Origin: Mucilaginibacter rigui
GTDB lineage: Bacteria; Bacteroidota; Bacteroidia; Sphingobacteriales; Sphingobacteriaceae
Direction: 5' to 3'
Assembly (NCBI RefSeq): GCF_014773275.1
Contig: NZ_JACWMW010000002.1
Coordinates: forward strand, 1-64,000
Length of the DNA stretch: 64,000 bases
The notes under the pieces are model-generated. The model saw only the letters and a list, made by a program, of their open reading frames with translations. It did no database searches and had not been told where the DNA came from. The position numbers and the translations under genes are program-made. Below, one piece after another: positions 9,432 to 32,660 of the stretch. Each line of letters starts with the position of its first letter. The stretch's first letter is position 1.

Positions 9432-10226
9432 TTAATCTTTCTTCCCGTTCTCTACCCGCTTCACTTCCTCGCGGCGGTCTTTCTTAAAGTCGAAGTCCTC
9501 AAAATCTTTGGTTTGGGGGATGTCTACCAAAAAGCTATCCAGTTCATCAATTTCGATAGTAACGTCGCCGGTGGTTAATTCGATGATGTGGCCACCGCTT
9601 TTTTTGTCGTCACTCAAAAAATGGAAATGGTAACCGGTGATGTTCGGCCCGTCCATAAAGGCCGGGATACGGTAACCTACCAGGGTGCCTTTTATATTTT
9701 CGAAAGTGAAGAAATGTTGCAGGGGCAGCATGTCGGCCAGGGGTACATATGGTTTTTTAACCGGTGGGAATGCCCGGGTTTTGATGAAATTAAAGCTGCC
9801 GGTTATTTTGATCGCATAGATGCCATTTTTGTTCGCTAATAAGCTATCCAGGGACGAAAAAAGGTCTTTTTTGGACAGTTTTTGGCGAACTAAGGCCGTT
9901 TTTTGGGCCTTAAAAAAGTTGACTACCGTAAATGGCGTTAACTCGGTTGGATTCACCTCAAAGGTCTTCCCGGTTGATTGTGTTTGGTAGATCCTGCCAT
10001 CCAATACCAGTACCTCGCCGTCCAGTTTATCGGGGGCACCCAAACCAAAATCGCCGTGTTTTAAAACTTTACTATAGGGATAAACGGCATCATACAACCC
10101 ACCAATAAACGCACTGGCATGGCCTGCAGTATAAAGCGTATTATTTTTTGTTTGTGCCGACGCGTTGCTTGTAGCAAACAGGCATACAAGTGCCATTAAG
10201 CAGGCGTAGAAATTGCGACAGGTCAT
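9432..10226 (-). CDS. budA: Exported alpha-acetolactate decarboxylase
   Basis: Converts 2-acetolactate to (R)-acetoin and CO2, the second step of the acetoin/butanediol branch. The family motifs LYTAGHASAFIGGLYDA and KHGDFGLGAPDKLDGE are present. Zinc ligands are visible as H200, H202 and H213 in GYHFHFLSDDKKSGGH, with a Glu following in IIELTTGD. Residues 1-24 form a clear Sec signal peptide ending ASAQ, so the enzyme is secreted to the periplasm. It ends 4 bases from the end of the convergent MocR gene. No acetolactate synthase or butanediol dehydrogenase gene is nearby. Confidence 0.92.
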   Translation of the reverse strand: MTCRNFYACLMALVCLFATSNASAQTKNNTLYTAGHASAFIGGLYDAVYPYSKVLKHGDFGLGAPDKLDGEVLVLDGRIYQTQSTGKTFEVNPTELTPFTVVNFFKAQKTALVRQKLSKKDLFSSLDSLLANKNGIYAIKITGSFNFIKTRAFPPVKKPYVPLADMLPLQHFFTFENIKGTLVGYRIPAFMDGPNITGYHFHFLSDDKKSGGHIIELTTGDVTIEIDELDSFLVDIPQTKDFEDFDFKKDRREEVKRVENGKKD

Positions 10227-20043: not shown

Positions 20044-23000
20044 TTAAAATGTGGCTGTTAAACCAATTGTTACGCTCTTAAGGATAGGGTAATTGTTTCC
20101 GTTACCGCTGCTTCCATCGGTTAAGATCCTGTCAGATCCGTTGATACTTTCAGGGTCAATATCTTTGGTGATCTTGTAAAGTGGCGACCAGGTTAACAGG
20201 TTTTCGCCGGATACAAATACACGCAGGTTGGTCAACTTGATTTTCTGTATCAGGTGCAAAGGCAGGTTATAGGCTACCTGTACGTTTTTCATACGCAGGT
20301 AAGCAGCGTTCTGCAAGTACTTGGTTTGCGCCTGTGTTAACTCGCCCTGGCCATTTTGTGCAACATAACCACGATATCTTGGGAAATAAGCATCGGGGTT
20401 GCTTTCTGACCAGATCTTGTCCAGCTGTGATACCGGTATTTTATTGTAGGGCCTGTTATATTGTCCCCAGAAAACACTTGCTTCCGAACCCGGGTACCAA
20501 TCTCGTTTGGCCACCCCCTGGAAGAATGCTGAAAATGAGAAGTTATTCCAGTCGGCATCTACACCTATACCATAAGTGTATCTTGGGGAGGAGTTACCGA
20601 TGATCTTCCTGTCGCCCGGTTTATCCACGGTTTTATCGCCATCATTTATAACACCATCACCGTTCAGGTCAGCAAATTTAATATCGCCCGGTAAAAGCTG
20701 GCCGGTGTTAGATGCTTTGATAAGTGTTTGTTTAGGTGAGTTGGCAATATCCTGCGCAGATGTAAAATAACCTGCAGTTTGGTATCCCCAAATTTCGCCT
20801 ACGGTTTGGCCTGCGTAGTAGTCACTTAACCTTTTATCCGGATTGTTGTATTTAGTGATCTTGGCGGTATAGTCGGCAACGGTTGCCCTAATACCGTAAT
20901 TTAATGGTTTACCACCAACATTAAATCGGTCTCTCCAGGCTACCGATACCTCCCACCCTGTAGTTTTTAAGTCGGCATAGTTACCTTTAGGTACATCTGT
21001 ACCAAATACAGCGGGTAGGGTCATACCCACAGTAAACATGTCTTTTGTTCTGCGGACGTACGCATCACCCGTAATGGTTAAACGGTTTGATAACATGCCA
21101 AGGTCTAAACCTAAGTTTTGGGTATTTGATGTTTCCCAGGTTAAACCGTCGGGCAAAACGCCGGGCTGGCTTGTTTTCTGTGGTAAAACACCATTTAAGA
21201 TCCTGCCCGATTTAGAAATATTGAATTTTTCCTGGAAGGCGTAAGAAGCAATACTACCGTTACCCAATGAACCATAAGACCCTCTGATCTTCAGGTCGGA
21301 GATAAGATCTTTTGAAACTTTCCAGAAAGGCTCGTTTGTAATCTTCCAACCGGCAGATACTGATGGGAAAAAGGCATACCGCTGATTTGAAGGAAATTTT
21401 GATGAACCATCGTAACGGCCGTTTGCCTCTACCAGGTACCGGTCTTTATAAGAATAGTTTAAGCGATAAAAGCCGCCCAATATATCCCATCTGTCCCATC
21501 CGCCTTTTGTGGTGATACCCTGGCCCAAAGCAAGATTAATATCAGTAGCATCTTCAGAAATTAAGCCGTTACGTAAAACGCTTACACTGTTTAATGTTGA
21601 TTGCTCAAAATTAAAGCCACCCAATGCCTTAAAATAATGGCCGCCTTTTAACTTAGGCTCGTATTCGCCATAAATATTGGTAGCCATATACTGTGTGCTC
21701 TGGTTTACATTCTGATAATCGTTATAATTTGTACCTACGTACTCAATTACGCCCGGTTTGCGGCTGTATGGTACAGGCACACGTTTTTGTTTTTGATTGT
21801 TATCGGTATTCTGGAAAGTGAAATCACCTTTTACACGAAATACATTGTCAAAAAACTGGGCTACAAAGCCGGTGGTATTTCTAAACACGCGGTTATTAAA
21901 ATCAATACCATTTTTGCCGTAATAATAATCGCCGACAGAATAAGCGGCAGAGTAGGTTAGGGTACCATCGGGGTTAAACATAGGCACCATAGTATGGCCC
22001 TCATCTGCAATGTTACGCCAGATGCTGCCGCCTTCGCCCACATTTAAGGGGTTATGGTATTTCATGTTAGAGTAATCGGCATTGTTATATAAGCTTAACC
22101 AAGGGTAAACCTGTAGCGAACCTTTTGCCCGTAAATTATAGATATTATAATCATCGGAGTTATAACGGAACAAACCATCTTGCGAGTAGTAACGGCCGGT
22201 GATCAGGAAATCGGCTTTACCGCTGTTGCCGGACACTGCAAGGTTATGTTCGCGGGCGCTGTTATGATCTTTGTATAACTGGCCGTACCAATCTGTATTG
22301 CCATAGTACTCATATTCGCCGGCCGAGTTTACAATAGTTTGTGGCAAAGATGGGTCGTTAGCATGCCTTTCTAACTCTTGTAAATAAGCTTGCGAGAATT
22401 TTACTGTTTTGTTGATATTTTGCGGAGTTTGCGAATAATCGTTCCACGCGCTCCATCCTTCGTTAAACATTTTGGCAAAGGTGTAGCCATTGGTCACAAA
22501 GTTTGGTACAGTGGTAGGGCTTTTTATCGACTGGTTAAACGAGTATGTAATACTTGTTTTCTCTTTCGATGGATTTTTGGTAGTGATCAATATAACACCA
22601 AATGCACCCCTTGCACCATAAATAGAAGCAGAAGCAGCATCTTTAAGTACCGAAACACTGGCCACGTCATTAGGGTTAACGCGGCTTGGATCGCCCTCTA
22701 CACCATCCACCAGTACCAGTGCGTTACCACCCTGGCCAATAGAAGTAGTACCCCTGATGTTAAACGATGGTGATTGCAACGGTTTACCATCTAAAGGAGT
22801 AAGGTTTAAGTTAGGTATTACACCCTGCAAGCCTTGTGTAAGGTTGGGCAACGAGCGGTTCTCTAAAACTTTAGACGTAACCTGGTCTACCGCACCTGTA
22901 AGATTTTGTTTCTTTTGTGTGCCATAACCAACCACCAACACCTCGTTTAACGTGCCCGACTGGGCAACCAGCGTTATATTATTAACCTTAGTTTCTTCGC

Positions 23001-23583
23001 CAGACTTTATTTTAACCCCCGGTATGCGTTTAGATTCAAAGGAGATAAAGCTTACCAACATGGTATAGGTACCTTCGTCTGCAGTGATGCTGAACGCACC
23101 ATTGATATCGGCTTGTGCACCTTTACCGGCCTCAACCAGCATAATGGTAGCGCCGGTAAGCGGTTCGCCTTTTTCGTCAACAATTTTTCCTGATATTTTA
23201 CCGGGGGCTGCCTTTGGAGGCTGCTCTTTTTTATAAAGGGTAACAGTACCTTCTACTTCTTCTTTAAACCCGATTTGGGTATTGGCAAAAAGTTTTTTAA
23301 GTACAGTGGCTAAACGCTCGTCATTAAACGTGCCCCCTTTAATCTTAACCTCGGTAAGGTTTACCAGTTCAGGGTCGTAGGCAAAATCGATATGGCCTGC
23401 CTGCTCAATTTTTTTGACAGAACTGGAAAGGGTTTCGTTCCTGAAAGAAACGCTTACGCGTTTTTCAAAGATCTGGCCTGTGGTTGGGGCGGCTATGAGT
23501 ACACCTGCGCCCGCAATAACTATGGTGTAAATAAGAAACGTGATACGCATGGCTTTAGTTAAGCAACGTAAATTTTTTTTCAT
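20044..23583 (-). CDS. SusC/RagA-family TonB-dependent transporter with STN domain
   Basis: Outer-membrane energy-dependent importer, 1179 residues. The signal region is at residues 1-37. A secretin/TonB N-terminal (STN) domain (about 38-115; VSVSFRNETLSSSVKKIEQAG) is typical of receptors that signal to an anti-sigma factor. Next come a carboxypeptidase-regulatory-like beta domain (about 128-210; GKIVDEKGEPLTGATI), the TonB box and plug (about 215-330; VVGYGTQKKQNLTGAVD, VDGVEGDPSRVNPNDVASV) and a 22-strand barrel ending ATF. The STN domain fits the adjacent FecR/ECF pair, giving ligand-induced expression. A stem-loop lies between this gene and fecR. Confidence 0.95.
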   Translation of the reverse strand: MKKNLRCLTKAMRITFLIYTIVIAGAGVLIAAPTTGQIFEKRVSVSFRNETLSSSVKKIEQAGHIDFAYDPELVNLTEVKIKGGTFNDERLATVLKKLFANTQIGFKEEVEGTVTLYKKEQPPKAAPGKISGKIVDEKGEPLTGATIMLVEAGKGAQADINGAFSITADEGTYTMLVSFISFESKRIPGVKIKSGEETKVNNITLVAQSGTLNEVLVVGYGTQKKQNLTGAVDQVTSKVLENRSLPNLTQGLQGVIPNLNLTPLDGKPLQSPSFNIRGTTSIGQGGNALVLVDGVEGDPSRVNPNDVASVSVLKDAASASIYGARGAFGVILITTKNPSKEKTSITYSFNQSIKSPTTVPNFVTNGYTFAKMFNEGWSAWNDYSQTPQNINKTVKFSQAYLQELERHANDPSLPQTIVNSAGEYEYYGNTDWYGQLYKDHNSAREHNLAVSGNSGKADFLITGRYYSQDGLFRYNSDDYNIYNLRAKGSLQVYPWLSLYNNADYSNMKYHNPLNVGEGGSIWRNIADEGHTMVPMFNPDGTLTYSAAYSVGDYYYGKNGIDFNNRVFRNTTGFVAQFFDNVFRVKGDFTFQNTDNNQKQKRVPVPYSRKPGVIEYVGTNYNDYQNVNQSTQYMATNIYGEYEPKLKGGHYFKALGGFNFEQSTLNSVSVLRNGLISEDATDINLALGQGITTKGGWDRWDILGGFYRLNYSYKDRYLVEANGRYDGSSKFPSNQRYAFFPSVSAGWKITNEPFWKVSKDLISDLKIRGSYGSLGNGSIASYAFQEKFNISKSGRILNGVLPQKTSQPGVLPDGLTWETSNTQNLGLDLGMLSNRLTITGDAYVRRTKDMFTVGMTLPAVFGTDVPKGNYADLKTTGWEVSVAWRDRFNVGGKPLNYGIRATVADYTAKITKYNNPDKRLSDYYAGQTVGEIWGYQTAGYFTSAQDIANSPKQTLIKASNTGQLLPGDIKFADLNGDGVINDGDKTVDKPGDRKIIGNSSPRYTYGIGVDADWNNFSFSAFFQGVAKRDWYPGSEASVFWGQYNRPYNKIPVSQLDKIWSESNPDAYFPRYRGYVAQNGQGELTQAQTKYLQNAAYLRMKNVQVAYNLPLHLIQKIKLTNLRVFVSGENLLTWSPLYKITKDIDPESINGSDRILTDGSSGNGNNYPILKSVTIGLTATF

Positions 23584-23665
23584 ACTTTTGAATTCTTAGT
23601 GAATTTTAACAGAGAAACTAAGGGTGTAAGCTAATAAGGCTCAATTTATTAGCTTTGCAAACTAT

Positions 23666-23697
23666 GGCCGGATCTGCTACAGACCGGCTTTTTTTTA
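23666..23697. other. Stem-loop between fecR and susC
   Basis: GCCGG...CCGGC stem followed on the plus strand by a T-run. On the transcribed minus strand the T-run precedes the hairpin as A residues, so it is not a canonical terminator there. It may attenuate or protect the susC mRNA. Confidence 0.4.
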
Positions 23698-24651
23698 TCA
23701 ATAAATAATTACTTCATTATTTTTCCTCCTGAAACTGTTTTGATGAATAGAACATACAATTTTCAGCGTTTCGTCAACAGTGCGCAGCGGGCTGATAATT
23801 ATATTGTATTGATAGGTGTATGTTAATTTGTTTTTGCTAATAAGCTTTATGCCGTAAACGTTATGAATGGCCAGGGCCAATTCGTTAAATGATGCATGGT
23901 TTAGCACGGTTTTGCCCTCCGCCCATTTTCTGCTGTTCTCGGCATTGTAGGTGCTTACATAGCCGGTGTGCTCTCTGGTAGAATAGGTCATTTTTTGGTT
24001 AGGTAACAGTACAGCCAGCTTTTTTTGCTTATCGTTTACCTGCACACGGCCGGTTCTAACAGTTACTGTGGCACTATTTAATTGCCTATATGCTTTAACA
24101 TTAAATGATGTACCCAAAACGCGGGTAGTAATACTTTTGGTAATTACCAAGAAAGGGCGGGCGGGGTTCTTCCTTACTTCAAAAAAGGCCTCGCCTTCAT
24201 CTAAATAAATATTACGGTTGGTATGGCTCTCAAAAGTTTTGCTTACGCGGATACTTGTTTGGGCATTCAGCCAAATTTTTGACCCATCCGGCAGATCCAG
24301 CTTTTTAAGCTGTCCGGTACCTGTGCTAATAGTTGTAAATGTTTCGTTAGCCTGGCGCTCAGGGGCTTTTTTGCGACTAAACAAAGCAGCGCTAACCAAT
24401 AATATGGCAGCAGCCGCGGCAGCATATCTTCTATTAATGCTTATACGGCGTATTTTGGCTGGTGCAGGGTGTAAATGCTTTTGCACATAGCCATATATCT
24501 CTTCACTTAGCTGTGTTTCTTTCTCAGCAGATAATGAATGGTTACTGCTCTCGTAAGATTGGTACCAGTTGTCAACCAGTTTGCGTTCTTGCTCGGTTAC
24601 ATTATTTTTAAGGTAGCGGTCAATTAAATCTTTTAGTTCAGATGGGGTCAT
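23698..24651 (-). CDS. FecR-family anti-sigma factor
   Basis: Inner-membrane regulator that holds the ECF sigma factor until the SusC receptor signals. The N-terminal cytoplasmic part spans about residues 1-80. One transmembrane segment lies about 74-92 (YAAAAAAILLVSAALF), and the periplasmic FecR domain is about 120-215 (LPDGSKIWLNAQTSIRV, GEAFFEVRKNPARPFLV, VLGTSFNVKAY). The DUF4974-like C-terminus (about 240-317) contacts the receptor STN domain. The 73-base gap to the sigma gene suggests one operon. Confidence 0.93.
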   Translation of the reverse strand: MTPSELKDLIDRYLKNNVTEQERKLVDNWYQSYESSNHSLSAEKETQLSEEIYGYVQKHLHPAPAKIRRISINRRYAAAAAAILLVSAALFSRKKAPERQANETFTTISTGTGQLKKLDLPDGSKIWLNAQTSIRVSKTFESHTNRNIYLDEGEAFFEVRKNPARPFLVITKSITTRVLGTSFNVKAYRQLNSATVTVRTGRVQVNDKQKKLAVLLPNQKMTYSTREHTGYVSTYNAENSRKWAEGKTVLNHASFNELALAIHNVYGIKLISKNKLTYTYQYNIIISPLRTVDETLKIVCSIHQNSFRRKNNEVIIY

Positions 24652-24724
24652 TCAGTTTTGTGCTGTTTTACTGATATGTTGCACAAAACGCCCTTTACTA
24701 CTTCTATTTTAAATCAACTTTATG

Positions 24725-25333
24725 TTAACTTTTTGTAAATAGCGCCATAATCACAATAAAACAGTTTATGTAACGGTCGGGGTATTCAACCTTAAGGCGA
24801 CGCTTTAATCGTTTTAAAGCTTCGGTAATATTGTTAGATACGGTTTGCTCGGCAAGATTCAGGTTTTCGGCAATTTCTTTAACCGAATAGCTGTCGCTTC
24901 TTAGTAAAAATGACCGCTTCATATTAACAGGCATAACTTCCACCTCTGCGCTGACAATTTCTTCAAGATCAAGATATCCATATAGGGCATCTGTTGTATA
25001 AAAACGGTCGGTCATGCGTTCCAACGCTTTTTCTATCGCACTCTGTTTAACATCTTCTGACCTAAAATGCTGAAGCACTTTAAGTTTAACAGCACCAAAT
25101 AAATACTGGCTAAGCGTAGTACTAATTTGCAGGCCTATTCGTTTCTGCCAAATCTCGATCAGGAGATTTTGAACTATATCTTTCGCGGCGTCCCCATCGC
25201 CCAACCTGGAGAAAGCAGCGTTAAAAAGCGATTTCCAATAACGCTTATATAACTCATCAAAAGCATTGGTATCGCCTTGTTTAAGCAATTCCAACAACTC
25301 ATCGTCGGTAGGTGGATTGTCAAATTTCAGCAT
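24725..25333 (-). CDS. ECF RNA polymerase sigma factor (Bacteroidetes FecI-like)
   Basis: Alternative sigma factor likely to switch on the SusC/SusD operon. Region 2 lies about residues 25-95 (FDELYKRYWKSLFNAAFSRL, AKDIVQNLLIEIWQKR). Region 4 lies about 130-190 with helix-turn-helix YSVKEIAENLNLAEQTVSNN. At 202 residues it is a standard length. It precedes fecR and the STN-containing SusC gene, the usual order for this signalling cascade. Confidence 0.93.
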   Translation of the reverse strand: MLKFDNPPTDDELLELLKQGDTNAFDELYKRYWKSLFNAAFSRLGDGDAAKDIVQNLLIEIWQKRIGLQISTTLSQYLFGAVKLKVLQHFRSEDVKQSAIEKALERMTDRFYTTDALYGYLDLEEIVSAEVEVMPVNMKRSFLLRSDSYSVKEIAENLNLAEQTVSNNITEALKRLKRRLKVEYPDRYINCFIVIMALFTKS

Positions 25334-25465: not shown

Positions 25466-26536
25466 TTATTTTTCCTTGTTAACCTTCCAAATAAAACCAT
25501 CCAACACATAGTGGGTGGACTGGGGCAAGGCTAATAACGGAACCAATAGTGATAAAACTTGTTCGTTACTTATTTTTGGCAAACAGGCGAAAAAAGTAAA
25601 GACGCTTCCGTGCTCCTTCCAGACCATTCCATCCCATAAGCCTTCTTCTACATAGGCCAGAAAAGCCAGCAGCAAAACGAAAAACACCACGCCACCAAAT
25701 TTGCTAAAAGTATATTTTAAAATAAGATTGTTTTTATTGCCGCTTTTACCATGCTTCTTTTTCTCGAAGATCCAGATCAAAGCCATATAAGGTATGCCAT
25801 GCGATATCACGTTGAGGGTAGTAAAAGCCATATCTCCATTAAAATATACTATACCAAAATACCATGACAGAAACGTACCCCCGATAAGTAAATTACGGGG
25901 CCAGTTAAACGCTCCTGTATTTGCCAGATACGTAACTTCTTTAACAACATAAGTTGCAATTACAAGCAGGTATAACCCAAGCCCAATACCCAATAGTACC
26001 GGCGAGTGAAAAGATATGATATCGTTCTCTACAAACCAGCTAAAATTTCTGTCACCTTCGAAATGCCAGTAAAACAGCGGGTAAATCGTAGCGGTATAAA
26101 TAGCCAGTTTATCTATCAGTCTGAACCAGCAATTGCTGCCCTCTTGCCGGGAGTATAGCCGCATAAATCCATACTGCTGCCTTACAAAATGAAAAACTGC
26201 CAGGTAAGCTAATACTCGCCAAAAAAGCATTCCGTTATAATTGTGCAGCAATACACCAACGATATAACAAGCAATAGGCACAATGATCAAAAAAGCCTCT
26301 TTTTTATACGATTTTGAATTGAAATAGGTACGGTATAGCGTACTGTAAACATGCGCAACATCAATAAAAACGACCAGAAACAACCAGTAATAAACGGGTA
26401 TGGCAGATGATGCCTGGAATTGCGCCGGGAAACAAATAACCAGCAGCAAAGCAATAAACGGCGGCGACAAAATAAACACCCCGTCAATAATCGGCGAGTG
26501 CAGCCATGGTTGCTTATGTTTGGGGCTGTTTTCCAT
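25466..26536 (-). CDS. Multi-pass membrane protein with conserved-looking histidines
   Basis: No family recognised with confidence. It has 356 residues with about nine or ten hydrophobic segments. Histidines and aspartates sit at membrane edges in motifs that look functional: FIDVAHVYSTLYRTYF, AVFHFVRQQYGFMRLY, NVISHGIPYMALIW and QSTHYVLDGFIWK. This pattern resembles membrane di-iron or lipid-modifying enzymes (for example Brp/Blh-like dioxygenases), but that is only a resemblance. It is the last gene of the operon and overlaps the FAD-oxidoreductase gene by 23 bases, so it almost certainly works with that system. Confidence 0.75.
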   Translation of the reverse strand: MENSPKHKQPWLHSPIIDGVFILSPPFIALLLVICFPAQFQASSAIPVYYWLFLVVFIDVAHVYSTLYRTYFNSKSYKKEAFLIIVPIACYIVGVLLHNYNGMLFWRVLAYLAVFHFVRQQYGFMRLYSRQEGSNCWFRLIDKLAIYTATIYPLFYWHFEGDRNFSWFVENDIISFHSPVLLGIGLGLYLLVIATYVVKEVTYLANTGAFNWPRNLLIGGTFLSWYFGIVYFNGDMAFTTLNVISHGIPYMALIWIFEKKKHGKSGNKNNLILKYTFSKFGGVVFFVLLLAFLAYVEEGLWDGMVWKEHGSVFTFFACLPKISNEQVLSLLVPLLALPQSTHYVLDGFIWKVNKEK

Positions 26537-28199
26537 ATATAGTTAAAACCTGGTTAGCCGCACGTATGCCCTGATGAAAAGCTTCCTCAAAAATAGATAT
26601 GCCGCTCAGATCGGTATGGGCAAAAAACATGTTATTATTTACAGGCTTTTGTGCGGCCTTTCTGTTTGCCCCCCAAATATAGTTTACAGCCGGGTATATC
26701 ATTCCATGGCCCCAAACCCAACATTCTACGTCCTCAATAGCATCTGTAATGCCCGGGTGCATATATTCCAGTTCGGGCATCATGATGCCCATCCACTGTT
26801 CGTATGTGCGCGTGTAAGCGGCGAGGCGTGCTACACGCGGTTCATGATCGCACAGCGGGAGGTACCATGTTAAAACCCTTTTTTCGTCGGTTATTTTAAC
26901 CGTTTGCTGCCCGGCATTTACATATCCCACCGATGGTGTATCGTAAGCCACGTTATCCCAACATAAGCCTGCACCTTTTGCCTGTGGCAAACGGTTAACC
27001 GTAATATTGGCGATAAACCACGGCGAATAATTTAATTTAGAATAATCAACACCGCGCTGTATATCTTTGAATAACCGTTGATTTACAAATTGCGGCGTCG
27101 CCACAATCACATTATCAGCAATGATGTTGCTTGTTATGCCTTTAGCTATATCATAAATTGCCGCTACTACCTGCCCTTTTTGATTATAGTTGATGCTATA
27201 ACACATATTGCCTTTACGTACGTGTTCGCCCAGTTCGGCAGCTAACTTTTGGGTTAACCAACCATTCCCCTCCGGCCAGGTTAATACGGCATTGCTTTCG
27301 GCATTGGCTGCTTTGCCTCTTCGCGATGCAAAATAATGGATGCCTGCCCAAGCGGATACTTTATCTATCTTTTGCCCGTAATCATCCTTGCAACAATAAT
27401 TTAAATACCAAAGCAAATAAACCGATGTAAGCTTTTGCTGATGCAGGTATTCTTTAAAAGTGATCAGGTCTAATGCGCGATATTTGTCATCAGTACTGCT
27501 ATTATCTATCGGGATATCGAAGGCAAATTTATTGTCGACGCCCTTTACCTTCTTGAGCTCGTCTATCAACGCAAAGAACTTTTTAACCTGCGCTTTATCA
27601 TCCGCGCTCAATCCAAAATCGGGTACTATACCTTCCTGCCATTGCCCATTAATGAGCAAACGCTCTTCAGGGTCGAAGCAAAGGTAGTATTCATTGTAAA
27701 CGGGCAGGCTATTTTCATACCCGGTAATTACACCACATTCCTGTAAAAACCCGGTAAGCAGGGTATCTTCATTATTGGCGATGGTGATATAATGCGCACC
27801 CAAAGGGTACGCCGAAACACTATTTTTACCCGAATATGAGTTACCGCCAACATGATCTTCCAACTCTAACAGTTCAAAATCGTGGTGGCCTTGTTTTTTT
27901 AACCAGCGTGCGGCTGATAGGCCAGAAATACCACTTCCAATGATCAGGGTTTTTATGGTGCGCGTAGCATTTGGTGCGGGCAATGGTAATTTATCACGCA
28001 GTATATGCCCCGCTTTTGCGTTTGGCCCTTTGATACTGCCTTTAATATTTTTGTAAGCGGTTTTCGGGTTGAGTTTGCGGATGCAACCGCCTAAAAAAAT
28101 ACCCGTGGTAACCAAGCCCGCTTTAAGCAGGAACGAGCGGCGGCTTAACCCTTTTACAAAGCCCGGGCTTTTATAAAACGGACGACCATTCATCTTCAA
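26514..28199 (-). CDS. Exported FAD-dependent amine-oxidase-like oxidoreductase
   Basis: Flavoprotein of the NAD(P)/FAD-binding Rossmann group. The N-terminus carries both a twin-arginine motif (LSRRSFLLKAG, about 18-28) and a lipobox-like end (IFLGGC, about 34-39), so it is probably Tat-exported and lipid-anchored. The dinucleotide-binding motif IIGSGISGLSAARW is at about 86-99, followed by LELEDHVGGNSYSG. A C-terminal HTDLSGISIFEEAFHQGIRAA contacts FAD, as in amine oxidases and phytoene-desaturase-like enzymes. Overlaps of 29 and 23 bases with its neighbours show tight coupling. Beside a spermidine synthase, a polyamine- or aminopropyl-group oxidase is a reasonable guess; the substrate is unproven. 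ATG at 28193 is an alternative start. Confidence 0.85.
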   Translation of the reverse strand: MKMNGRPFYKSPGFVKGLSRRSFLLKAGLVTTGIFLGGCIRKLNPKTAYKNIKGSIKGPNAKAGHILRDKLPLPAPNATRTIKTLIIGSGISGLSAARWLKKQGHHDFELLELEDHVGGNSYSGKNSVSAYPLGAHYITIANNEDTLLTGFLQECGVITGYENSLPVYNEYYLCFDPEERLLINGQWQEGIVPDFGLSADDKAQVKKFFALIDELKKVKGVDNKFAFDIPIDNSSTDDKYRALDLITFKEYLHQQKLTSVYLLWYLNYCCKDDYGQKIDKVSAWAGIHYFASRRGKAANAESNAVLTWPEGNGWLTQKLAAELGEHVRKGNMCYSINYNQKGQVVAAIYDIAKGITSNIIADNVIVATPQFVNQRLFKDIQRGVDYSKLNYSPWFIANITVNRLPQAKGAGLCWDNVAYDTPSVGYVNAGQQTVKITDEKRVLTWYLPLCDHEPRVARLAAYTRTYEQWMGIMMPELEYMHPGITDAIEDVECWVWGHGMIYPAVNYIWGANRKAAQKPVNNNMFFAHTDLSGISIFEEAFHQGIRAANQVLTIYGKQPQT

Positions 28200-29679
28200 A
28201 GTATTTTACCAGCACCTGGTTGTTCAACTTATTTACCTCTGTTTTTACTTTAGCCATATCCTTGGGGAAGTAAAACATCAGGTTAAGGCTTTCTTTGGTC
28301 ACGAAACGCATAACTGGTAAAAACACTGCCGGTTTTTTATAAACAGGGTTTTCGGTAGCCATAATATACCCCCACTCGCCAAATGACGGTACGTAGTTAT
28401 GATACGGAATGGTGTGCAAACCGACCGAACGTAGTGTGGTATCGACCGTCCAGAAAGATTTTGGCGCCACATAAGGCGACGTTGCCTGTATAACCATAAT
28501 GCCGCCGGGCGCAAGTACGCCTTTAGCCAGTTTATAAAACGAATTGGTGTATAGTTTCCCCACCGAGTAGTTTGATGGATCGGGAAAGTCAATCACCATA
28601 AAATCAAATTTCTTTTTGTCCTGTCGCAGCCAGGTGAAAGCGTCGGCATTGATCACTTTTACCTTTGGGGATAGTAATGAACTTTTGTTAAGGTTCAGCA
28701 ACATTCGGTTTGATTTGAATAACCCCGTCATGCCTTTATCCAGATCTACCAGTGTTACGCTTTGGATATTGGGATACTTTAATATCTCGCGTACGGCCAG
28801 CCCATCGCCTCCGCCCATCACTAACACGTTATGTGCATTCGGCAGTGCCTGCAAACCGGGGTGAACCAATGCCTCGTGGTAGCGGTATTCATCGTCAGAA
28901 CTGAATTGAAGGTTACCATTTAAAAATAAACGTAGCACTTTCCCTTTTTTGGTTAGAATGATGCGCTGGTAAGGTGTGCTTTTTGAATAAATAATGGTAT
29001 CGGCATAGGTAAGGCTTTCAGAGAAATTGGTAATAACGCCGGCGTAAACAAAACCCACCGTAAGGGCAAGGACGCTGATAACGGCACTGGTTTGCAGATA
29101 AACTGCCGCCTTTATCTCCTTCTTAAAACTTACGCATACAATAAGGGCAACCCCAACGTTAAGGATACCCACCAGGTATGAGGTTTTTACCAGCCCAAGG
29201 TAAGGTATCAGCAACAAAGGGAATACAAGCGATGCCAGCAATGCGCCTATATAATCAAACGTAAATACTTTCGATACCAGGTCTTTAAACTCATAACGAT
29301 CTTTTAATATCCGCATAAGAAGGGGTATCTCCAAGCCTACCAAAATACCCGTGATACCAACAAGGCTATACAGGATGATACGGAACGAGGCGACGCTTTC
29401 AAACACCAAAAAAAGGATGGTAGAGCTCGTGCCCCCCACAAGGCCAACCAATATCTCCAACTGGATAAACCACGAGATAATATTTTTCTCGAAGTATTTG
29501 GATACCCACGAACCTATGCCCATCGAGAACAGGTAAACACCTATGATAGTGCTAAACTGGGTTACCGAATCGCCCAGCAGGTAGCTGGCCAATGTACCCG
29601 CTATCAATTCATAGATCAGTCCGCAGGTTGCTACCACAAAAACAGATATCAGCAGCAGGGCATGCAGTTTTTTATTCAT
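28171..29679 (-). CDS. Membrane-bound polyamine aminopropyltransferase (spermidine synthase fold)
   Basis: Fusion of a membrane domain and an aminopropyltransferase. About seven transmembrane helices occupy residues 1-215 (LLISVFVVATCGLIYELIAG at the start, then GVYLFSMGIGSW). The C-terminal SpeE-like domain has the nucleotide-binding motif VLVMGGGDGLAVREIL, VTLVDLDKGMT, the catalytic-region FMVIDFPDPSNYSVGKLYTN and GGIMVIQATSPY. It would transfer aminopropyl from decarboxylated SAM to an amine acceptor, perhaps at the membrane. ATG 29679 is chosen: it begins the first helix and lies 2 bases after the DUF350 gene, although the frame is open to 29739. A SpeD-like gene is upstream in the operon. 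Confidence 0.9.
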   Translation of the reverse strand: MNKKLHALLLISVFVVATCGLIYELIAGTLASYLLGDSVTQFSTIIGVYLFSMGIGSWVSKYFEKNIISWFIQLEILVGLVGGTSSTILFLVFESVASFRIILYSLVGITGILVGLEIPLLMRILKDRYEFKDLVSKVFTFDYIGALLASLVFPLLLIPYLGLVKTSYLVGILNVGVALIVCVSFKKEIKAAVYLQTSAVISVLALTVGFVYAGVITNFSESLTYADTIIYSKSTPYQRIILTKKGKVLRLFLNGNLQFSSDDEYRYHEALVHPGLQALPNAHNVLVMGGGDGLAVREILKYPNIQSVTLVDLDKGMTGLFKSNRMLLNLNKSSLLSPKVKVINADAFTWLRQDKKKFDFMVIDFPDPSNYSVGKLYTNSFYKLAKGVLAPGGIMVIQATSPYVAPKSFWTVDTTLRSVGLHTIPYHNYVPSFGEWGYIMATENPVYKKPAVFLPVMRFVTKESLNLMFYFPKDMAKVKTEVNKLNNQVLVKYFEDEWSSVL

Positions 29680-29681
29680 TC

Positions 29682-29906
29682 CTACCCGTGTATAGCTGAA
29701 CTGATGATTATAGCCACCGCTATCATAAACGAGGCGCAAACGATGGCAAGAGCAATATTATGTTTCTCTACGATCTCTTTCCATAAATTCTCAGGTGTAA
29801 TCTTTTCGATTATCCAGTAAGATACCAGCAGGATAAGGATACCTATTACAGAATACAGCACCGAAGCGGTAATGTATTTTAAATTAATTAGATCATGTAA
29901 GCTCAT
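29682..29906 (-). CDS. DUF350-family small membrane protein
   Basis: A 74-residue protein with two transmembrane segments (about 13-33, VLYSVIGILILLVSYWIIE; about 50-70, NIALAIVCASFMIAVAIIIS). The N(I/A)A-A pattern and length match a single DUF350 repeat, also known from E. coli YjfL. Function is unknown in the family. DUF350 genes commonly sit next to DUF4178, spermidine-synthase and SAM-decarboxylase genes, exactly as here. It starts 10 bases after the 58-residue gene upstream and ends 2 bases before speE. Confidence 0.85.
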   Translation of the reverse strand: MSLHDLINLKYITASVLYSVIGILILLVSYWIIEKITPENLWKEIVEKHNIALAIVCASFMIAVAIIISSAIHG

Positions 29907-29916
29907 AATGATGTGT

Positions 29917-30093
29917 TTATTTATGGTAAAATGCGTGAACGCCCCTTACGCGGCTATTGTTGTTATATTCGGTGTTACGGGTTACGCTGCTGCTTTCCCA
30001 AAACGCGATGCCGTTAAGGGCCGCGTAGGTGTAATACCCTATAATAAGCAGGGCAAACACCAGATAAATACGTGCAGCTTTAATTGTATTCAT
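29917..30093 (-). CDS. 58-residue single-pass membrane protein
   Basis: A short gene hidden in the gap between DUF4178 and DUF350. Its ATG overlaps the DUF4178 stop as TAATG, and its stop is 10 bases before the DUF350 start, so operon geometry supports it strongly. The sequence begins MNTIKAARIYLVFALLIIGY, giving one transmembrane segment (about 9-27). A polar, Asn/Ser/Arg-rich tail with FWESSSVTRNTEYNNNSRVR and HAFYHK follows. No family is recognised. It may correspond to the small accessory protein often found between DUF4178 and DUF350. Confidence 0.75.
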   Translation of the reverse strand: MNTIKAARIYLVFALLIIGYYTYAALNGIAFWESSSVTRNTEYNNNSRVRGVHAFYHK

Positions 30094-31409
30094 TATTTGT
30101 CTGTTTCATAGGGTGAATAATCGCTGTTCATCCAACGTCTTTTTTCGTAATTACGCATCCTCAACCAGGCATACAGTGGGTAAAGACACAGTAGTAGAAT
30201 GGTAACCCAAACATTGCGCCATACCACCGGGTTGGCGTTTATATTAATGTGGATACTTTTATTGCGGGTATCTCCAGATGCCGGGTAAATATTTAAATGG
30301 TATTTGCCGCCGGGAATGCCGGATAACAACACATTGGCTTCCTGCGAACCTTCCGACCAGCTTTCGCCATCTTCGTATCCGTGGTAGTACTCTATGCTTT
30401 CAGTCACCTCCCAGCTTTGGTTATCCTTTTCATTTACCAGCACTACCGTAGTCTCTAACCAATTATTATCAATATCCGATTTGATCGAAAATTCCAGGGC
30501 CGACGATGATTTATCTAAAGTAAATGATGGTGTAACAAAAGGTTTAAACTCGTTAACCTTAGTGGAATCGCTTAGGATAAAAAAATCGTTATCCATAACC
30601 ATATGTTGCGGGTTAAGGTATAATGATATAAACCCTATAACAGCAACCAAAACCACTAATAAAGGGGTTAGCTTGTAAACGGAGAACCACCTTTTGGCAT
30701 GTACCGATGGCTGGTTAGCACCAATGCCTATCTTTTCGGGGAATAGCTTTATATCCGTTTTAAAAGCATCTGCTATTTCCCTGGGTTCTGCATAACGGCC
30801 CAAGTAAAAATCGGCGGTGCTTGTGCCGGGCTTATCCTGCTCTTTGTATATAATGTTTGGCGGGGCGACAAACTCAGATGTTTTGGCCCACTCATATAAT
30901 ATATCCCAGTCAAACTCACCTAAAATAGCGGTGGTTATAGCCGTGTATTTATTAAACAGGTTGTATTCGTTATCTTCGAAATCAATAAATTCCCAGCTGC
31001 GGGCGCTCAGCTTTTCCAGATTTGGATAAAACTCTTTCCCGGCAACAAATGTCCAGTGCCCATCATACTCGGCAAAGTTGGCATAACCTTTTTCATAGTT
31101 GTAAAGGATATACTCCCGCCAGGCGTAACCGGCATCCTTTTCTTTTTTTTCTATATAGCCAATAACTTTAAAATTGTAACCATTAAATAAGCCAACGCTA
31201 CCAAGCTTTAATACCGGTTGCTGTTTTATCGGCGGCGCGTTTTTTTGGATTACCGGGGTATCATTTGCTATAAAGCGAATAAAAGAATTACAGGATGAGC
31301 ACACACAATACTCGCTACCCTCGGGGTCATAAAGTGTAATGATGTTCTTGCACTTTGGGCAGGTTACATCCTCCGAATAAGGGAAGGCCTTTAGATTTAT
31401 TGTTGCCAT
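30093..31409 (-). CDS. DUF4178-domain membrane protein with zinc ribbon
   Basis: A 438-residue protein. An N-terminal zinc ribbon with two CxxC pairs (CPKC about 18-21, CSSC about 37-40) is followed by a DUF4178 domain (about 70-210; GFNGYNFKVIGY-like opening, EYILYNYEKGYANFAEYDGHW, YKEQDKPGTSTADFYLGRYA). Two transmembrane segments (about 248-268 and 405-425) flank a predicted extracytoplasmic beta-rich region. DUF4178 is of unknown function and is known from the same neighbourhoods as DUF350 and spermidine synthase. It starts 1 base after speD. Confidence 0.85.
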   Translation of the reverse strand: MATINLKAFPYSEDVTCPKCKNIITLYDPEGSEYCVCSSCNSFIRFIANDTPVIQKNAPPIKQQPVLKLGSVGLFNGYNFKVIGYIEKKEKDAGYAWREYILYNYEKGYANFAEYDGHWTFVAGKEFYPNLEKLSARSWEFIDFEDNEYNLFNKYTAITTAILGEFDWDILYEWAKTSEFVAPPNIIYKEQDKPGTSTADFYLGRYAEPREIADAFKTDIKLFPEKIGIGANQPSVHAKRWFSVYKLTPLLVVLVAVIGFISLYLNPQHMVMDNDFFILSDSTKVNEFKPFVTPSFTLDKSSSALEFSIKSDIDNNWLETTVVLVNEKDNQSWEVTESIEYYHGYEDGESWSEGSQEANVLLSGIPGGKYHLNIYPASGDTRNKSIHININANPVVWRNVWVTILLLCLYPLYAWLRMRNYEKRRWMNSDYSPYETDK

Positions 31410-31410
31410 A

Positions 31411-31764
31411 TTACCTTACCAGTTCAGTTTTTTTTATTTCTGTGGCTTCAAAAAAACTAAGTATCTCATGATAAATAGCCCTTACCTTTTCAGAGTTATC
31501 TTTCTGGTAATTTGATAAAAAGATATCAAAAGTGGCCAGGTTAAACTCCGGCCAGGTATGTATGGATAAATGAGATTCTGTTAAACAAACAACGCCCGTA
31601 AATCCGGCGCCATCAAAATCGTGATAAACCTCCCCAACTTTTTCAAGCGAATACCGGGAGATAAGATTATCGAAAAATAATTTACAGGGTGCCGATGCAG
31701 AAAAGAAAGCTATATCGGCTGCAGAAAACTCTGCTAAAATATGTAAACCGGGTTGATAAGGCAT
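31411..31764 (-). CDS. SpeD-like pyruvoyl decarboxylase (S-adenosylmethionine decarboxylase family)
   Basis: Self-cleaving pyruvoyl enzyme expected to decarboxylate SAM to the aminopropyl donor. The cleavage motif ESHLSIHTWPE is intact: Glu63/Ser64 form the processing site and His69 is the processing base. Where the classical bacterial enzyme has its catalytic Cys (FTCG after HTWPEYGYAAxD), this protein reads FDIFLSN, so position 84 is Ser. ATG 31764 is chosen because the -7 element at 31783-31790 makes the upstream start (31785) unlikely to be transcribed. It is the first gene of the operon. The Cys-to-Ser change may alter substrate or activity. Confidence 0.85.
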   Translation of the reverse strand: MPYQPGLHILAEFSAADIAFFSASAPCKLFFDNLISRYSLEKVGEVYHDFDGAGFTGVVCLTESHLSIHTWPEFNLATFDIFLSNYQKDNSEKVRAIYHEILSFFEATEIKKTELVR

Positions 31765-32030: not shown

Positions 32031-32660
32031 ATGAGGAAAATAACAGACGGGCCCCACCGGAATAAACAGCGAACAAAAGAAAATTTAATCAAAGCCGTTG
32101 GGCAACTTCTTCAAGATGACGGCTTCTCAGGTATCACAATTTCAAAAGTTGCAGACAAAGCTAAAATGGACCGAAAGCTTATCTACAACTATTTCGGAAA
32201 CCTTGAAGGATTGATAAAAGGGTATTTAGAATCCAGGGATTATTGGAAAATTAACCCGGATGATATCGAAGGTATCATACAAAGCACCCAAAAAGATTCT
32301 GGAAAATCACTCGCTTACCAAGTCTTAGAGCATCAATTCGATAGCTTGCTATCGAATGAAGAGGTGCGGAGAATAATTACATGGGGATTAAGTGAAAAAT
32401 CAACCTTACTTAAAGAGCTTGACCTTAGACGTGAAAATACAGGAGAACAAATTCTTAAGGCAGTATTTGACGAGCATTTCAAGGAGCGTGCAACTCATTT
32501 TCGTGCTGTTTATGGATTATTGATGGGCGGGATTTATTACCTGACTCTTCATGCGAAGATGCAGGAAAATACTTTTTGTGGAATAGATTTTCAACAGCGC
32601 TCCGGACAGGAAGAACTTAAGAAAGCAGTTAAACAGATCATTGACATGCTTTATAAATAA
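32031..32660 (+). CDS. TetR-family transcription regulator
   Basis: A 209-residue protein. The N-terminal helix-turn-helix is about residues 12-60 (TKENLIKAVGQLLQDDGFSG, ISKVADKAKMDRKLIYNYFG). The C-terminal all-helical ligand domain contains the conserved-looking ITWGLSEKSTLLKEL. It is divergent from the speD operon with 245 bases between, but no operator palindrome was found there, so control of that operon is unproven. Its lower GC and codon use resemble the accessory DNA to its right. Confidence 0.88.
   Translation: MRKITDGPHRNKQRTKENLIKAVGQLLQDDGFSGITISKVADKAKMDRKLIYNYFGNLEGLIKGYLESRDYWKINPDDIEGIIQSTQKDSGKSLAYQVLEHQFDSLLSNEEVRRIITWGLSEKSTLLKELDLRRENTGEQILKAVFDEHFKERATHFRAVYGLLMGGIYYLTLHAKMQENTFCGIDFQQRSGQEELKKAVKQIIDMLYK

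Follow-up and report, generated by a model that had tools for sequence, protein, structure and literature searches.

A conserved seven-gene operon of Bacteroidota and a candidate route for polyamine modification of an exported C-terminal lysine

Parts of a bacterial gene neighbourhood comprising SpeE, DUF350, DUF4178, SpeD and a polyamine oxidase have been published (Ravi et al. 2024, PMC11237479), and operons that join SpeE, DUF350 and DUF4178 are widespread, with no known acceptor. Here, we analysed such a locus in Mucilaginibacter rigui (RefSeq assembly GCF_014773275.1), in a 64,000-nucleotide stretch of contig NZ_JACWMW010000002.1 (positions 1 to 64,000 of the forward strand; hereafter, the window). 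A preliminary description of the window had noted a seven-gene operon in a neighbourhood that was partly known already, as the published parts bear out, and had suggested that an envelope lipid or a surface-bound amine is aminopropylated and then oxidised. We found that the seven genes form a strongly conserved unit and that one of them encodes a small membrane protein whose C-terminal lysine is a specific, testable candidate for the acceptor. The genes, in operon order, are as follows.

31411..31764, minus strand: speD homologue, 117 amino acids (aa), S-adenosylmethionine (AdoMet) decarboxylase fold (PF02675, E = 2.6e-20)
30093..31409, minus strand: DUF4178 protein, 438 aa (PF13785, E = 5.9e-6)
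29917..30093, minus strand: small tail protein, 58 aa, a translated open reading frame (ORF) with a single transmembrane (TM) segment and C-terminal -YHK; the proposed amine acceptor
29682..29906, minus strand: short DUF350 protein, 74 aa, one two-TM unit (PF03994, E = 8.9e-16)
28171..29679, minus strand: membrane SpeE-like aminopropyltransferase, seven TM helices and a C-terminal spermidine-synthase domain (NF002956, 667 bits)
26514..28193, minus strand: exported flavin adenine dinucleotide (FAD) oxidoreductase, SpdH-like, amine-oxidase fold (PF01593, E = 4.3e-14; model with a predicted local distance difference test score (pLDDT) of 88)
25466..26536, minus strand: HisM, polytopic membrane protein, 356 aa, no Pfam or NCBIfam match

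Each of the seven ORFs has a single terminal stop, and the spacings from speD to HisM (+1, −1, +10, +2, −23 and −23 bases) agree with the tight packing and partial overlap that had been described. The single promoter and single terminator of the preliminary description were not recovered: promoter-like sites numbered 21, against 22.5 expected from shuffled sequence, and the hairpin at the 3′ end was not significant (z = 0.33). Curated cut-offs were exceeded for AdoMet_dc, DUF4178 (just), DUF350, Spermine_synth and Amino_oxidase, and the earlier assignment of SpeD and SpeE as donor maker and transferase is supported. The window operon contains 7TM-fused SpeE, DUF350 and DUF4178 jointly, one trait of the polyamine-PSP operon class. 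The PspA/CesT dyad or its band-7 replacement was absent from the window operon and from the recurrent neighbours of the 80 related loci described next, and was present in relatives such as L151 and L146.

To define these loci, the HisM protein was searched against 84,980 species genomes, yielding 202 relatives, the best 80 of which were taken with 10-kilobase flanks and, with the window, gave 81 loci that were scored for six profiled families. SpeD, DUF4178, DUF350, SpeE, the flavoprotein and HisM had identical order and strand in 74 of the 81; only DUF350 was absent in three (L060, L066 and L095), and the remaining four were truncated contigs. SpeD was present on the contigs of 76 of the 80 relatives, and the order SpeD–DUF4178–small gene–DUF350–SpeE–flavoprotein–HisM was kept in all 76 (three without DUF350), with the small gene between DUF4178 and DUF350 detected in nearly all loci. 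The flanks vary, and the operon borders are sharp because no family outside the seven recurred in more than 13 of the 80 loci. This shared order of the profiled families is far beyond chance, and the seven genes stay linked in many bacteria of soil and water, the hosts of the HisM loci being Bacteroidota (including Mucilaginibacter, Pedobacter, Chitinophaga, Dyadobacter, Hymenobacter, Flavobacterium and Chryseobacterium).

Co-occurrence was assessed in 395 genomes of the same class. A full membrane SpeE was encoded in 40 of them, the flavoprotein in 18 and HisM, in intact form, in 20. All 18 flavoprotein genomes (hypergeometric p about 2e-20) and all 20 intact-HisM genomes (p about 6e-23; both uncorrected for phylogeny) fell within the SpeE set, and HisM adjoined SpeE in 19 of 20 cases. 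Where SpeE was at least 50% identical, the flavoprotein was adjacent in 16 of 16 cases and HisM was found in 14 of those genomes. The view that the flavoprotein and HisM belong with SpeE, put forward in the preliminary description, is matched by very strong co-conservation, and the refuting condition named there, an absence of co-conservation, did not hold. A second gene order also exists, with a PspA-type operon followed by SpeE–HisM–flavoprotein (L151, L153 and L154; L151 shows PspA itself). The same trio is convergent, in L152 and L155, to a PspA-type operon that holds a second SpeE. Outside the Bacteroidota, the flavoprotein is linked to SpeE, without HisM, in Novosphingobium, Burkholderia and Gemmatirosa. 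Separately, three genomes (L152, L155 and L156) carry two membrane SpeE genes each, one PspA-type and the other with HisM and a divergent flavoprotein, and one Mucilaginibacter congener (G444, L161, positions 9573–9889) retains only a stop-broken HisM remnant, which we read as recent operon loss.

The small tail protein has a positive N terminus and one TM segment with a predicted N-in/C-out orientation, past which a variable Gly-, Ser-, Asn-, Thr- and Arg-rich stretch always closes in His-Lys. When tail ORFs were selected by position and hydrophobicity only (n = 85), 83 ended in HK, and the two misses were wrong ORFs whose correct frames end in NHK and SHK; by comparison, HK closed 3 of 1,507 background genes and Lys 12.8%. 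The -HK ending is retained at loci where DUF350 has been lost, and in L126, where the small gene is missing, the DUF4178 protein itself closes in -SGSHK. The exported lipoprotein of PspA-type operons has -GFGK, -GYGK or -GGK as its last residues, and the C terminus is still -GFGK where the lipoprotein is fused to DUF4178 (L181–L183). Tails elsewhere end in -SGK (Ensifer and Alteromonas), -RVK (Tritonibacter), -PSHK (Novosphingobium) and -RHGK (Gemmatirosa), and a directed search in Burkholderia, an apparent exception, gave a tail ORF ending in -GSHK. Among these predicted proteins, an invariant terminal lysine is shared by three scaffolds: the small TM protein (-HK), the lipoprotein (-GK) and the DUF4178 fusion (-SHK or -GFGK). 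The exact ending tracks the type-B flavoenzyme, with -HK in six of seven operons with the enzyme versus none of 15 without it (p = 9e-5), the latter ending in -GK or -VK.

A different terminus is found beside peptide-spermidine ligases (the RefSeq label for Escherichia coli YjfC and YgiC): the ligase partners end in -GG in 8 of 10 cases and in Lys in none. The partner beside GSP_synth (PF03738) genes and E. coli YjfM/YgiB ends in -GG, as do the partners at further ligase loci in Rhizobium, Methylobacterium and Paraburkholderia. The stricter expectation, that ligase partners always end in -GG, failed in two of five further loci (Sphingomonas, -IHA; Tsukamurella, -GS), and no adjacent partner was found at the Photobacterium ligase locus, the sixth examined. 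GSP_synth genes occur in loci L127, L128 and L176; the window operon has none.

The SpeE motifs GGGDG, YHEALVHP (YHE) and DFPDP (DxxD) are invariant or nearly so across 78 loci. Across 38 diverse sequences, the mean number of Lys and Arg residues per segment, counted from the N terminus, was 2.1, 0.2, 2.4, 0.3, 3.0, 0.6 and 3.2, a strict alternation of positive charge over the seven helices; a 7TM domain of SpeE is likewise described by Ravi et al. (PMC11237479). Because this alternation follows the positive-inside pattern, a rule-based prediction places the catalytic domain, which comes after TM7, probably outside the cytoplasmic membrane, so that the transferase described earlier as membrane-embedded would be so in its seven helices and probably not in its catalytic domain. 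The DUF4178 protein combines an N-terminal CxxC...CxxC zinc ribbon, with Cys pairs conserved across 77 loci, the DUF4178 domain and two TM segments around a predicted extracytoplasmic domain. A further subfamily of membrane SpeE (L160, L174, L178 and L180) occurs without DUF350 and adjoins a large exported protein.

The flavoprotein is exported by prediction, its leader in the window combining an RR-x-F-L signal with a lipobox (LGGC). Of 78 flavoprotein gene calls, 68 have twin-arginine RR or RK, most of the others being Dyadobacter KR/RR variants or miscalled starts, and at least 52 carry a lipobox-like Cys. In Pseudomonas SpdH, haem b is ligated by His54 and His562 (PMC12564564), which the family profile aligns with H63 and H496 of the window protein (numbering read off the printed alignment). 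Taken alone, the C-terminal part of this alignment scores weakly (3 bits), but its register meets the invariant GH(G/A)M motif exactly. Neither histidine varies among 47 operon flavoproteins or among 25 sequences that include a divergent, 28%-identity group, and the two are the predicted haem b ligands, matching the two axial histidines of SpdH-type enzymes. The AlphaFold model of the flavoprotein ranks among enzymes that oxidise monoamines, putrescine and spermidine. An exported flavoenzyme that would act after the transferase, as had been proposed, is the supported interpretation.

HisM matched no sequence in Pfam, NCBIfam or PDB and none in plasmids, and its predicted model, itself confident (pLDDT 89, predicted template modelling score 0.88), had no fold match at E ≤ 0.001 among PDB and viral structures; on this modelling, we are confident that HisM represents a new membrane protein family with a new fold. 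Seven residues are invariant across 59 sequences (H62, H116, H246, H342, D59, Q120 and D346), and the four histidines lie on separate helices, with a polar partner sited one turn from each (D59/H62, H116/Q120, H246/Y250 and H342/D346). A metal or haem site is suggested because each invariant histidine has such a partner nearby. Kinship with Brp/Blh proteins or desaturases, raised by the histidine motifs only, was not supported. Remote relatives (about 20% identity; L134–L142) stand alone beside unrelated genes in other Bacteroidota, within a larger membrane family, and carry extra histidines and the motifs DSPHFFGT, WHVVRQHYG, HDxQYH and HHYFxDQxIW.

Together, these features lead us to propose, tentatively and from sequence comparison, that the operon carries out aminopropylation and then oxidation in the envelope, with the C-terminal lysine of the tail protein, rather than a lipid, as the acceptor. 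SpeD would supply decarboxylated AdoMet in the cytoplasm; SpeE, with a catalytic domain that faces outward from the inner membrane, would probably move or receive this donor via its membrane part and would aminopropylate the side-chain amine of the terminal lysine, giving a spermidine-like side chain; and the exported SpdH-like flavohaem dehydrogenase would oxidise the secondary amine, leaving an aldehyde or an otherwise altered tail end, with electrons passing from FAD to haem b and on to HisM or the quinone pool. DUF4178 and DUF350 may be membrane scaffold or sensor parts, as in PspA-linked relatives. Lysine is the proposed acceptor because its side chain, an aminobutyl amine, resembles putrescine, on which SpeE usually acts, and the flavohaem enzyme is placed on the aminopropylated product because it resembles a spermidine-oxidising enzyme. 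What the sequences show is the gene content and order, their conservation, the catalytic motifs, the correspondence of haem ligands and the motif at the tail end; the siting of the transferase domain, lysine as acceptor, the product and direction of the oxidation and the role of HisM we infer.

A looser claim very probably holds, namely that the operon is a polyamine module of the envelope, working outside the cytoplasm and apart from bulk polyamine synthesis. The genome encodes one SpeD and one SpeE, both within the operon, as well as a deoxyhypusine-synthase-like SpeY, which is of the homospermidine synthase type (PMC10407285). Among 61 Mucilaginibacter congeners, SpeY was found in 57, SpeD in 11 and intact HisM in 10, and in the 49 good-quality genomes SpeD and intact HisM were held by the same seven. 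The operon is unlikely to serve bulk synthesis because SpeY is near-universal in these congeners and SpeD and HisM are sporadic. A carboxyspermidine route was considered and rejected, the nspC match being under the cut-off, beside an aspartate kinase and likely lysA.

Several points weigh against lysine as the acceptor, or against the pathway leading to it. No tail can be recognised at one SpeE/DUF350 locus (L175) or in the SpeE subfamily without DUF350 (L160, L174, L178 and L180); the conserved C terminus might just as well serve docking or sorting; not every peptide-spermidine ligase partner ends in GG; and the lineage tests disregard shared ancestry. In addition, a periplasmic transferase domain would require export of the donor, and a Ser at the proton-donor Cys in most non-flavobacterial SpeD proteins makes donor synthesis uncertain.

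Among the alternatives, a free polyamine cycle, in which SpeE makes spermidine or a related free polyamine that enters the periplasm, its oxidation there by the SpdH-like enzyme serves as a redox or stress signal and the tail peptide functions in docking or assembly, survives best and is still unlikely. SpdH itself acts on free spermidine and spermine (PMC12564564) and SpeE keeps the standard spermidine-synthase motifs, but this cycle leaves both the terminal lysine on three unrelated scaffolds and the GG beside ligases unexplained, and one operon making and degrading the same free polyamine would be futile. Distinctly less likely is a sensor tail, whose -HK or -GK end would bind DUF4178, DUF350 or PspA-type partners and report on polyamines or the state of the envelope without being covalently altered. 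Flexible, low-complexity linkers fit docking, and monitoring of polyamine concentration by PspA/polyamine operons has been proposed (Ravi et al., PMC11237479); a mere docking motif, however, would not be expected to become GG exactly beside a peptide-spermidine ligase gene.

The lipid version of the preliminary description, in which an envelope lipid such as phosphatidylethanolamine or ornithine lipid is aminopropylated and then oxidised, seems improbable. It would suit a membrane-bound transferase whose catalytic domain is probably near the outer leaflet, and an exported oxidase, but the unit has no lipid-binding or lipid-synthesis gene and the tail protein would be left without a role; we found no sequence sign of a lipid acceptor, and as an acceptor the tail protein is a much more specific candidate than either a lipid or a freely diffusing amine.

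Slightly less probable still is a changed SpeD in the Ser-bearing clade, one that has lost AdoMet decarboxylase activity and is now, for example, a pyruvoyl amino-acid decarboxylase, with SpeE using another donor or another SpeD. At the position equal to the catalytic Cys of class 1b AdoMet decarboxylases (C83 in Thermotoga maritima), the 77 loci carry Ser (55, including the window), Cys (21) or Tyr (1), and substrate shifts are known among SpeD homologues (PMC10407285). Against this change, the pyruvoyl Ser (ESH) and the catalytic His (IHTWPE) are each present in 77 of 77 loci, the window included, the Pro of WPE is invariant, Cys is retained in flavobacterial, Novosphingobium, Burkholderia and PspA-type members of the same operons, and the genome holds no second SpeD. 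The Flavobacterium and Chryseobacterium proteins that keep the Cys also carry a Lys two residues ahead of the pyruvoyl Ser. A defence system was dismissed, PADLOC giving nothing beyond a generic methyltransferase-like match.

Downstream of the operon, the same strand (20044–25333) encodes a SusC-like receptor, a FecR-like anti-sigma protein and an extracytoplasmic function (ECF)-type sigma factor, which have no bearing on the present finding. Upstream of speD (32031–32660) is a divergent TetR-like regulator, a family that does not recur near the operon in other genomes.

A broader reading, doubtful at present and built on sequence comparison, would make membrane SpeE proteins in general protein aminopropyltransferases that act outside the cytoplasmic membrane on the invariant C-terminal lysine of exported, Gly/Ser-rich tails, with further oxidation by the flavohaem enzyme and HisM in type-B systems, and with YjfC and YgiC arriving at something similar when they join spermidine to a terminal Gly. 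The idea of polyamine-tagged C-terminal tails on envelope proteins would then link membrane spermidine synthases with the E. coli peptide-spermidine ligases. In the literature, we found no description of bacterial protein modification by attachment of a polyamine to a C-terminal lysine followed by oxidation; likewise, the main-text literature searched gave no mention of HisM, of the match in haem ligands, of an outward topology or of a C-terminal lysine code, supplements and subscription literature being outside the search.

Compared with described systems, the window operon shares SpeE with a 7TM domain, DUF350 and DUF4178 with the PspA-linked operons, which also include a lipoprotein, but it lacks PspA/CesT, its DUF350 is short and a small -YHK protein replaces the lipoprotein; the text of that study does not mention HisM or its link, nor its main text the C-terminal lysine (PMC11237479). 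The flavoprotein resembles Pseudomonas SpdH (7D9F–7D9J) in its flavin amine-oxidase fold, twin-arginine leader and both haem b ligand histidines, although identity is about 14% over the fold and the genomic setting differs. The E. coli yjfIJKLMC and ygiBC operons similarly combine DUF350, PspA and an exported low-complexity partner with a conserved C terminus beside a polyamine-attaching enzyme; there, however, the enzyme is an ATP-grasp ligase and the partner ends in -GG, whereas in the window the enzyme is an aminopropyltransferase and the partner ends in Lys. The E. coli peptide-spermidine ligases YjfC and YgiC, with DUF1190 partners, were reportedly described by Pederick et al. in 2023. 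Finally, in the deoxyhypusine/hypusine modification of eIF5A, a polyamine-like side chain is built on a protein lysine and then oxidised, as proposed here, but by other enzymes, with spermidine as an aminobutyl donor and in another compartment; if the proposal is true, aminopropyl-lysine would be a bacterial counterpart of hypusine.

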